Assembly: GCA_902705835.1 (NCBI GenBank) | Contig: CACSIN010000006.1 | Location: forward strand, 96,156 to 130,613 | From: BD1-7 clade bacterium | GTDB lineage: Bacteria; Pseudomonadota; Gammaproteobacteria; Pseudomonadales; DT-91 | Direction of reading: 5' to 3' | Length of the DNA stretch: 34,458 nucleotides | Part shown: positions 25,521 to 28,187 of the stretch, piece by piece | How positions within the stretch are numbered: the stretch's first letter is position 1 | How the letters are laid out: each line of letters begins with the position of its first letter | Translations under genes and position numbers: made by a program | Notes under the pieces: generated by a model | What the model saw: only the letters and a program-made list of their open reading frames with translations | Database searches by the model: none | Told to the model about the DNA's origin: nothing

Positions 25521-26150
25521 TTAGTTAATGTGCTTGAGAACCACTTTCGAAACGTCAGACGTTACGCGAGAAATGCTGTTGGCTTCAAAGGTGGATGAGC
25601 GACCTGTCCACTCGATATCACCCGTTTCGGCGTTATAGATAGATGTCACCAAAATGGTTTTGGTGGTCTCATCGAAGTAACCCGGAGTTGTAATCGTGTT
25701 TACTGAACCTGGGCCCCAGACGCTGCCCAGTGTTGGGTAGTAGTATCCACCGTATGATCCGTAAGGGTATCCGTAGCCGGTAACAACGGTTGATACTGTC
25801 GGTTTGATGTAAGTCTTGTCGACTTCTTGGTTAGACACATAAGTGATCAATACGTATTTGGTTGGATGATCTTTCAGGTAGCTGATGATGGCTTCTTCAT
25901 CCGGTGTTTTACGACCCAGTACGGTGTAGCTTGGGGTCGCCTTAAGACCTTGTCTCATCAGCGCCGCAACAAATTCGCGTTCGAATACCATGCGGTTAGT
26001 GGCATTGGCTGTCATACCGACAATCAATACATCATTCAGGTCAGTTTTATGGAAGTTTGGTGCTTGCCAAACGTCTCGCATATTGGTGGTGCCGCAGGCG
26101 GCAAGCAGCAAACTGGCGGTCAGTACCAGAATCAGTTTCAAGTGAGTCAT
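25521..26150 (-). CDS. Uncharacterised lipoprotein, Gly/Tyr-rich middle
   Basis: The product is a 209-residue lipoprotein with the signal HLKLILVLTASLLLAAC (lipidation Cys19). The rest begins with DVWQAPNF and VLIVGMTANATNRMVFERE. It has a central segment very rich in Gly, Tyr and Pro (GYGYPYGSYGGYYYP) and a C-terminal beta-rich part with YNAETGDIEWTGRSST. The shape recalls the DUF4136-like lipoproteins seen in proteobacteria, but I cannot confirm it. The ATG at 26150 has AAGG directly adjacent, too close to use; a TTG at 26141 has AAGGA eight bases upstream and gives the neater signal peptide MKLILVLTASLLLAAC. Both starts give the same mature protein. It is monocistronic. Confidence 0.8.
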   Translation of the reverse strand: MTHLKLILVLTASLLLAACGTTNMRDVWQAPNFHKTDLNDVLIVGMTANATNRMVFEREFVAALMRQGLKATPSYTVLGRKTPDEEAIISYLKDHPTKYVLITYVSNQEVDKTYIKPTVSTVVTGYGYPYGSYGGYYYPTLGSVWGPGSVNTITTPGYFDETTKTILVTSIYNAETGDIEWTGRSSTFEANSISRVTSDVSKVVLKHIN

Positions 26151-26321: not shown

Positions 26322-27113
26322 TTATTGCCAGGGCAGACTGATCGGCTCATGCGAGATCAACGGAACACTTTGCATCAATGTCAGCCGGTAGTCGGTTGTT
26401 TTGCGGTCGCTGTTTGTTCGCAAAGATAACGCCATGCGGTGTTTTTCTGACGGATAGAACAACCAACTGCGCCAAACATGCGGAAAGTCGACACGATGTG
26501 GGGCAAAGCTCATACGGATATCCGGATTTATCGGCGTATCCGTACGTGGGGCGATATGAAAACTGAAGTCATCCAGTGGAATTGCCAGACCCAATCCCCA
26601 CGCTTTGATATACGACTCTTTTAATGTCCAGTAGTCAAAAAAGCGGCAGCGCTGCTGATCTGCAGGCAAACTGAAAAGTTCGCGTGTTTCTATGGGGGAA
26701 AAATAGCGATCAGCAATCGAAAGCACATCGTTATTTCTCTCGATATTTTCAACATCACACCCGATATCATCGTTGAGTGTTACTGCGCAGGCAATCAAGC
26801 CGTCGGTGTGGCTGAGGTTAAAGCGCAGCGGCAGTGGGGCGTTAACCAATTCGGGTTTATCTTTCTCACCCTTTTCAAAACGCCAGTCTTCCGGGGCGAC
26901 ATCCGCATAGCGAGATAGCAGGTCGCGAACAAAAGCACGCGTTACGAGCGCAGAGTGTTGATCTTTGGCAAATTTATAACGCTGTTGCTTAGCGGTTTCT
27001 TCCGCGGTTAGCAGTGTTTTATAGCGTTCTAGCAGCTCGCTGGATTGAATTTTATCAGCAAAACATACCCAAAGATGTATGTCGCCTTCCGTCAGGGTCA
27101 AATTGGGTTGCAC
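26322..27113 (-). CDS. pfaE: 4'-phosphopantetheinyl transferase PfaE (Sfp type)
   Basis: It transfers the phosphopantetheine arm of coenzyme A to the conserved Ser of acyl carrier protein domains, here most likely the six domains of PfaA. The Sfp-type motifs are present: IGCDVENIERNND (Asp and Glu bind magnesium) and FFDYWTLKESYIKAWGLGL, the WxxKEAxxKxxG signature. The start was chosen at a GTG (27113) because AAGGA stands six bases upstream; a GTG nine codons earlier (27140) has no site. At 263 residues it is slightly larger than Sfp, as usual for PfaE. It is divergent from pfaR, with about 280 bp between them. The location next to pfaA, rather than the sequence alone, supports the PfaE name. 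Confidence 0.92.
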   Translation of the reverse strand: MQPNLTLTEGDIHLWVCFADKIQSSELLERYKTLLTAEETAKQQRYKFAKDQHSALVTRAFVRDLLSRYADVAPEDWRFEKGEKDKPELVNAPLPLRFNLSHTDGLIACAVTLNDDIGCDVENIERNNDVLSIADRYFSPIETRELFSLPADQQRCRFFDYWTLKESYIKAWGLGLAIPLDDFSFHIAPRTDTPINPDIRMSFAPHRVDFPHVWRSWLFYPSEKHRMALSLRTNSDRKTTDYRLTLMQSVPLISHEPISLPWQ

Positions 27114-27214
27114 GTTTTTTCCTTTTGTAACAGGTATCACCAGTTTGTTGTGATATAGACGCGTTTTATCGCTAATACGAATAGATGCTTAGATACTTAT
27201 ATGTATTTGTTTTT

Positions 27215-27276
27215 GGGTGATTGTAACAAGTTAATGTGTTTTTGGTTTCGGGTGATTGTTTCGGGTGTGAAACCCG
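27215..27276. promoter_or_regulatory. Spaced repeats and inverted repeat in the pfaE-pfaR promoter region
   Basis: GGGTGATTGT occurs at 27215-27224 and again at 27251-27259 with one leading base (27250). GTTTCGGGTG occurs at 27245-27254 and 27258-27267, repeated every 13 bases. CGGGT (27262-27266) and ACCCG (27272-27276) form an inverted repeat around GTGAA. Together they look like operator half-sites, perhaps for PfaR itself. No -10/-35 pair could be placed with confidence. Confidence 0.4.
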
Positions 27277-27395
27277 TGTATTCTTCCCGCCGGTGCCACA
27301 ATTTGTTCAACTGCATCCGAGACATTGGTCGCCAGTTTGCCATCAATGATCGACGAATAACAACAATAATAAAGCCCTGGTTTTGAGTTCAGCCT

Positions 27396-28187
27396 ATGCC
27401 TAAGCGGCAACATGTGAATGCAACTACCACGCCGGAAATGCGCGCGTTTATCCGTGAGTCTGATTTACCCACGGCGGTACTTGCGCGCCTGCTGAAAATC
27501 TCCGAGGCAACAGTTCGAAAATGGCGTAAGCGCGACAACATCGAAGACGCCTCCCACTGCCCCAAGACCCTCAAAACCGCACTTAGCCCAGCGCAGGAAT
27601 ACGTTGTTGTTGAATTGCGTAAGCGCCTGTTGATGTCGCTTGATGAGTTACTGGAAATTTGCCACGAATTTATTCACCCGACCATTTCACGCGCAGCAAT
27701 GCAACGCTGCCTGAAACGTAATGGTGTATCCCGTCTGGCCGATATGGACGCCAGAGGGCAAAGCGCTGACGCAGATCAATCTGTGCAAGTGACGCTCGAA
27801 GATTGCAAAGAACACCAAGCGGTATTTTCTGAAATTTCGCCAGAAGCCATGAAAAGTGTACTTAGCCATGTTTCAGACGTTGACGAGAGTGAAATCGTTA
27901 ACGTCAGAGTAACCAAGCTACCCGCCTTTGACAGCGATGAAAACGACGCGACGCAACAGCGTTTGCTGGTAGCTACCGACCCACAAAGCCGCTGGGTCTA
28001 TGTCGATATTTATGACGGCGACGAAAAAGAAGCCGCCAGCCGTTATATGAGCCATGTGCTCAACAAAGCCCCTTTCCATATCCGCCGGATTCTGGCGGGC
28101 AACTACAACGAATTTTTAAGCAGGTTTCGTCTATTGGACGACGAAGCCGTCATGGATGACGGTGAAACTTGTGATGCGGACATCTAA
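27396..28187 (+). CDS. pfaR: PfaR regulator, domesticated IS481-type transposase
   Basis: PfaR is known from pfa clusters as a positive regulator of pfaA. This 263-residue protein has an N-terminal helix-turn-helix (residues 24-47, ending ISEATVRKWRKRD). A second HTH-like region follows (LSPAQEYVVVELRKRLL, then FIHPTISRAAMQRCLKRNGVS), and then a core resembling the RNase H-like catalytic domain of IS481 transposases: LLVATDPQSRWVYVDIY, then IRRILAGNYNEF. In IS481 enzymes the first catalytic Asp stands in a DxKxLP context and the second in TDNGKEF. Here these positions are Arg171 (NVRVTKLP) and Gly235 (LAGNYNEF), and the region with the third, Glu, is absent because the protein stops at 263. 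It is thus DNA-binding but not a transposase. Its stop is 17 bases before pfaA. Confidence 0.88.
   Translation: MPKRQHVNATTTPEMRAFIRESDLPTAVLARLLKISEATVRKWRKRDNIEDASHCPKTLKTALSPAQEYVVVELRKRLLMSLDELLEICHEFIHPTISRAAMQRCLKRNGVSRLADMDARGQSADADQSVQVTLEDCKEHQAVFSEISPEAMKSVLSHVSDVDESEIVNVRVTKLPAFDSDENDATQQRLLVATDPQSRWVYVDIYDGDEKEAASRYMSHVLNKAPFHIRRILAGNYNEFLSRFRLLDDEAVMDDGETCDADI

Follow-up and report, generated by a model that had tools for sequence, protein, structure and literature searches.

In Shewanella putrefaciens W3-18-1, PfaR is reportedly a positive transcription regulator, to go by the title of Wei et al. 2023 (AEM 89:e0002123). The PfaR of Colwellia psychrerythraea 34H was modelled in 2016 on MuA (4FCY), its catalytic residues were found not to be conserved, and it was judged to be a regulator and not an active transposase; the same study reported more than 100 PfaR homologues and a conserved PfaRABCD cluster (PMC4744452). 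The idea of PfaR as an inactive transposase turned regulator is thus already published, and the accessible part of that paper does not name IS481, a single origin or a repeat-derived operator. The PfaR studied here shares with both proteins its gene name and its position before pfaABCD. A further parallel is TldR, a TnpB-like, nuclease-dead and RNA-guided repressor (PMC13418256). According to the accessible text on TldR, it resembles PfaR in being an inactivated transposon nuclease that has kept DNA binding (which PfaR probably has as well) and has become a transcription factor tied to host genes; in contrast to the RNA-guided repressor TldR, PfaR would read DNA by helix-turn-helix (HTH) domains and is a reported positive regulator.

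IS481 transposases (for example ISGlo3, WP_012471725, L073) consist of a tandem HTH and an RNase H-like core, as does PfaR, and their upstream site GTCCCGGATGATT has the same orientation as that of pfaR, whereas PfaR lacks the catalytic Asp residues and the C-terminal part, shows neither a right end nor a TGTC tip and occurs as one copy in its source genome. The transposases IstA and MuA also have HTH domains. IstA (IS21), MuA (PMC4744452) and retroviral integrases have a core fold like that of PfaR, but are active enzymes with just remote sequence similarity to it. In the literature searched, no paper was found on an IS481 transposase turned transcription factor, and none on a repeat-derived pfaR operator; Wei et al. 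2023, which lay outside the reach of the latter search, may report a PfaR binding site. What is added here is the assignment to IS481 with one origin and, above all, an operator that resembles a terminal repeat. How new regulators find their targets is an open question in regulatory evolution, and in this case protein and site may stem from one mobile element.

The window, by which we mean the whole 34,458-nt stretch of DNA from a BD1-7 clade bacterium that was analysed, holds pfaR in the following setting:

26322–27140, minus strand: 4'-phosphopantetheinyl transferase gene (pfaE-like), divergent from pfaR (Pfam ACPS, E 2e-18)
27396–28187, plus strand: pfaR, a C-terminally truncated IS481-type transposase without catalytic residues, 263 aa
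28205–34458, open to the window end, plus strand: pfaA, the presumed target (TIGR02813 omega_3_PfaA, 3372 bits)

The 263-aa reading frame of pfaR starts with ATG and was confirmed as real; 17 nt separate it from pfaA on the same strand. The pfaE-like gene and pfaR diverge from a common intergenic region, which could therefore control both directions. The preliminary description had read PfaR as a domesticated IS481-type transposase and had proposed a profile search, structure prediction with superposition, and a phylogeny as checks; the reading finds support in the profile match, the alignment, the tree, the fold and the gene's place in the genome. The NCBIfam IS481 profile NF033577 matches PfaR with E 2.9e-25 and 89.4 bits, over residues 19–245 on profile positions 9–208 of 284. 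As the curated cut-off of this profile is 224 bits, PfaR is, on profile evidence, homologous to the IS481 family and outside its curated membership rule. Aligned with six IS481 transposases, PfaR is 35–41% identical to them. Pfam gave HTH-type and other matches, all under cut-off, and the sole match in a sequence search of solved structures was a chance-level ribosomal protein.

The homology extends over two HTH domains and a core, in which the following features were placed, all on the plus strand:

27432–27533: first HTH domain, residues 13–46 (model helices, Pfam HTH_23, IS481 identity)
27588–27725: second HTH domain, residues 65–110 (model helices, IS481 identity)
27882–28142: RNase H-like (DDE-type) core without catalytic Asp, residues 163–249 (fold matches, IS481 identity)
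27906–27908: Arg171 codon, in the place of the first catalytic Asp (alignment)
28098–28100: Gly235 codon, in the place of the second catalytic Asp (alignment)

Between six PfaR and six IS481 proteins, mean identity is 61% in HTH2, the highest among the five regions compared, 45% in HTH1 and 30% in the core, where IS481 proteins are 69% identical among themselves; judged by sequence identity, the DNA-reading part of PfaR is better kept than the catalytic part. An AlphaFold model was made from 14 PfaR and 4 IS481 proteins from viral contigs and is weak overall (mean pLDDT 61, pTM 0.31); an earlier model from 20 PfaR rows was poorer (pLDDT 53.7, pTM 0.30), and the mixed input improved the HTHs while the core remained at pLDDT of about 50–65. 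Two three-helix HTH units are modelled confidently, at residues 13–45 (helices 13–21, 26–33 and 37–45, with block pLDDT 82–92 over residues 11–50 and an HTH_23 match of E 4.7e-4, under its cut-off) and 65–108 (helices 65–78, 82–93 and 99–108). The two-part DNA-binding N terminus named in the preliminary description is thus recovered in the model and in the identity to IS481. The core, modelled at residues 167–244 with lower confidence, runs strand-strand-strand-helix-strand-helix. For the PfaR model, Foldseek placed chains of the transposase IstA in the first four ranks (E 5.7e-5 to 2.8e-4, with large whole-chain rmsd), and in a second fold comparison residues 163–249 matched retroviral integrase cores with Z up to 8.0, integrase cores making up most of the matches listed. 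The first integrase row has an rmsd of 2.4 over 73 residues, and its alignment ends at integrase chain residue 131, before Glu152, which we take to be the catalytic Glu of the matched integrase. A Z of 8 is not high by the tool's own note, so the claim to an RNase H-like core rests first on sequence homology; with that proviso, the superposition of the core on retroviral integrases, from a model of mean pLDDT 61, agrees with what had been expected.

The loss of all catalytic positions can be read directly from the alignment with the six IS481 transposases, in which Arg171 and Gly235 stand exactly in the two Asp columns, as previously described: VHIDVKYLPQM in IS481 faces VNVRVTKLPAF in PfaR (Arg171), and ILTDNGKEF faces ILAGNYNEF (Gly235). 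The catalytic Glu of IS481 lies in a C-terminal part (NGMVERFNGR) that is missing from PfaR; PfaR ends before this region, and the third acidic residue is indeed missing by truncation, so that PfaR contains no intact DDE triad. Across 82 PfaR rows, position 171 is K in 33, V in 10, S in 8, N and Y in 7 each, R in 5, A and E in 4 each, M in 3 and L in 1, and position 235 is G in 38, R in 17, A in 11, K in 7, E and S in 4 each and N in 1. Asp was found at neither position in any of these 82 rows (Glu in four rows at each), nor did the pattern NG.[VALI]ER match any of them. Residues that are varied and never Asp fit the expectation for a dead active site.

Close relatives of PfaR were found at 29 loci in genome contigs, among them a 100% identical protein in BD1-7 clade bacterium SB11_3 and others in Colwellia, Pseudoalteromonas denitrificans and metagenome-assembled genomes. 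In the order to which a Colwellia genome (G369) belongs, 67 of 394 genomes match PfaR at E<=1e-20; the 59 that match at about 1e-65 or better were counted as PfaR, and the remaining ones are a genome with IS481 elements (G388) and seven with another lineage (L146–L152). The 82 PfaR rows include eight repeats of counted loci, and L113 is the gene of the window again. pfaA lies downstream on the same strand in 81 of the 82 rows, the remaining row ending 2 nt past the gene at a contig edge, and the median gap is 22 nt. In a tree of 58 proteins (20 PfaR, 31 IS481 and 7 others), all 20 PfaR rows group in a single clade (support 100/100). Placement of this clade deeper within the IS481 tree is ambiguous, so we claim one origin and name no sister element. 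At one locus (L013), the first pfaR codons and the preceding stretch seem to be tandemly repeated, at least twice.

A regulatory mechanism is proposed that involves the following features upstream of pfaR, all on the plus strand:

27245–27259: proposed PfaR operator GTTTCGGGTGATTGT, like the inner part of the IS481 left terminal repeat (motif searches)
27256–27261: predicted -35 hexamer TTGTTT, overlapping the operator 3' end, 17 bp before the predicted -10
27262–27276: inverted repeat CGGGT-GTGAA-ACCCG in the promoter spacer, a possible second half-site
27279–27284: predicted -10 hexamer TATTCT, at motif position 35

PfaR derives from one IS481-type transposase whose active site and C-terminal part were lost, whereas the two DNA-reading HTH domains and a portion of the RNase H-like core were retained. 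PfaR most likely binds 27245–27259, a site still resembling the inner IS481 left terminal repeat; that it binds DNA at all is suggested by HTH conservation and by the operator resemblance. Because this site overlaps a poor -35, bound PfaR would occupy the position of a class II activator, from which it would help RNA polymerase to transcribe pfaR, then pfaA and presumably the remaining synthase genes. We consider it probable that PfaR, derived from a dead IS481 transposase, is an activator of pfaR–pfaA that binds a repeat-derived operator; binding, activation, autoregulation and co-transcription are what we infer from the arrangement.

The proposed operator (also written GTNNCNGGTGATTGT) is a 15-bp motif with the core GGGTGATTG. 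A 12-mer, TCGGGTGATTGT, is common to 26 of 28 close pfaR upstreams. A de novo search of 56 non-redundant pfaR upstreams, a set that excludes L004 and L081 (N-rich upstream), L028 (cut at a contig edge) and proteins that are 90% or more alike, returned GTaTCGGGTGATTGT, which is directed towards the gene in 55 of them, at 72–318 bp before the chosen start codon, and has no copy in L084. No imperfect terminal repeats emerged at 75% identity; left ends of IS481 elements were then sought by reading upstreams and by de novo motifs. From this separate search of 23 non-redundant IS481 upstreams (the number after exclusions), extended by reading 19 of them, came the left end TGTcgcgTCCCgGATGATt, with its outer end 80–125 bp before the chosen start codon in the 19 elements; the 19-element matrix omits L038, L043, L076 and L158, which show no clear TGT end. 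The left end of ISGlo3 reads TGTCAGGTCCCGGATGATTCC.

The pfaR and IS481 motifs, both read on the same strand, can be matched along 13 columns with a mean column correlation of 0.74; the shared sequence is roughly GT(C/A)(C/T)C(G/A)G(A/G)TGATT. This match was equalled by 2 of 20,000 column permutations and by 10 of 20,000 base-and-column permutations, offset and strand having been optimised for real and permuted motifs alike. The window site ranks second of 68,892 positions with the 13-column IS matrix and third of 68,880 with the 19-column matrix, which includes the TGTC tip. With the 13 columns, which were picked after the overlap was seen, the upstream score is equalled in 43 of 56 loci by no more than 1% of random 350-bp windows drawn from that locus; with 19 columns, just 11 of 56 loci pass this test. 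Shuffles that preserve dinucleotides on average were as good in at most 15 of 300 cases for 45 of the 56 upstreams and in at most 3 of 300 for 26, the window upstream standing at 4 of 300, and reversing the columns of the matrix lowered the score in 52 of 56 cases with 13 columns and in 47 of 56 with 19. Some relatives match the IS matrix poorly (L091, L095, L101, L119 and L127, for example). The deep PfaR branch is the most repeat-like (GTCCCAGGTGATTGT; in L109, GTCCCAGATGATTGT), and several of its members, such as L121, L124 and L130, carry an extra motif copy closer to the start codon. At about 47–78 bp before the start codon of L120, three operator-like 15-bp units follow one another head to tail (AGTCCCAACAGATTG, AGCCCCAACAGATTG and AGTCCCAGTAGATTG).

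The earlier observation that pfaR has no terminal inverted repeats needs correction on one side: an inner core like that of the IS481 left end lies at 27245–27257, directed towards pfaR. The observation stands for the outer TGTC tip (the outer six columns), which is not recognisable at the pfaR upstream site, and for the right end, which was not recognised among 19-column minus-strand matches across the window, where the top matches at 25953 and 29511 (inside pfaA) score 8.3 and 7.0, near the next ones. Of the two terminal repeats (TGT...ACA ends) that would bound an element, a left-end core alone was recognised, and a much decayed right end may be present. Exact TCGGGTGATTG occurs at eight sites in the source genome, of which that of pfaR alone lies outside open frames of at least 100 codons; the other seven fall within frames that measure 130–1003 codons from stop to stop, in a census of exact sites and in which an open frame need not be a gene. 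This genome-wide distribution would suit a dedicated regulator. It had also been suggested that a transposase origin would explain how PfaR came to recognise a specific site by this operon; the likeness of the conserved upstream motif to the left terminal repeat of IS481 lends this idea support at the level of sequence.

Loss of the tip is expected if cleavage no longer matters, but a chance likeness could look no different; we therefore lean only slightly towards the pfaR operator being, in fossil form, the left end that came with the founding insertion of IS481, and not a later-acquired site, with transposase and repeat captured together, the active site then lost and the repeat now used as an activator site. 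PfaR could also be domesticated as proposed and yet stand beside a motif that is not its operator or not related to the terminal repeat, one that serves as a promoter element or is bound by another factor and resembles an IS end by chance. A resemblance of just 13 columns, a missing outer tip (11 of 56 loci in the 19-column test) and a conserved block that runs into the promoter would all suit such a coincidence. We nevertheless regard it as rather unlikely, as so few permutations (2 of 20,000) reach the motif–motif match, which keeps the same strand relative to the gene, the distances to the start codon overlap (IS481, n=19; pfaR, n=55), HTH2 is the best conserved region and the motif is the top-scoring 15-mer of the pfaR upstreams. 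If the operator is indeed a fossil left end, a single insertion gave a complete, self-wired regulatory circuit to an omega-3 lipid synthase operon, and the repeat-like operator would offer a concrete way into the promoter for bacterial EPA/DHA synthesis. Since IS481 relatives whose ends can be read still exist, the path from transposase plus repeat to regulator plus operator can be tested step by step.

The promoter layout bears on the direction of regulation. Of the 55 motif-bearing pfaR upstreams, 53 agree with TATAAT in at least four of six letters, and their best match begins at motif position 35 in 35 rows and at 33 in 18. This near-constant spacing was judged solely by comparison with IS481 ends, where a -10 stands there in 5 of 17 elements and is scattered (L033 and L035, whose upstream ends at a contig edge, were omitted). 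As IS481 ends have no common -10, the promoter is not recognisably inherited. The consensus at motif positions 35–40 is TATATT in two PfaR groups, and the deep group reads gGTAaTCT from position 33; a TTGTAT-like -35 at positions 12–17, 17 bp from position 35, overlaps the motif 3' end, and the block at 27262–27276 is kept in relatives. Class II activation typically combines a weak -35 with a conserved neighbouring site whose phase hardly varies. Some transposases repress their own promoters, and PfaR could do the same, limiting pfaA expression instead of driving it; the site overlaps the predicted -35 and the spacer holds an inverted repeat, and both -35 overlap and spacer positions are used by repressors too. 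We hold repression to be improbable, since Wei et al. 2023 name PfaR a positive transcription regulator in their title and a poor -35 with an abutting motif at near-fixed spacing suits an activator.

PfaR might also be taken for an IS481 copy that is decaying, or can still move, and serves no host function. The source genome contains 16 IS481-profile matches including pfaR (on contigs C1, C5, C11, C18, C22 and others); three of these carry internal stops, none of the 16 exceeds the family cut-off, and in this company pfaR might pass for one more remnant. PfaR itself has a single match in that genome, an open frame of 244–337 aa adjoins pfaA in 81 of the 82 rows, and none of the 82 rows keeps Asp at either position, so that an active or recently decayed insertion sequence was rejected as extremely improbable. 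Equally hard to credit is an ordinary tandem-HTH regulator that is transposase-like in its HTH part alone, for which the Pfam matches to that part, below cut-off, might speak: the IS481 profile match reaches residue 245, the core aligns through both Asp regions and most listed fold matches of residues 163–249 are integrase cores.

PfaR may not be the only such case. In viral contigs, neither the ISGlo3 transposase nor the PfaR alignment retrieved relatives. A second truncated IS481-like lineage of 272–280 aa was seen at L146–L149, L151 and L152 (possibly also L150; wider stretches L165–L170), with an NF033577 match of E 1.2e-13 and 51 bits at L165:2977-3795 and no match in the lineage to the pattern of the second catalytic motif. 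Upstream of its genes (L146–L152), no convincing end-like site was found, perhaps except in L151 and L152 (best in locus, 6.8). This lineage may represent an independent domestication. In the four neighbourhoods that were translated, Pfam identified Asparaginase_2 in L165 (with an M17 peptidase) and L167 (with a PTS EIIC), and L169 and L170 contain Asparaginase_2 look-alikes as judged by eye.
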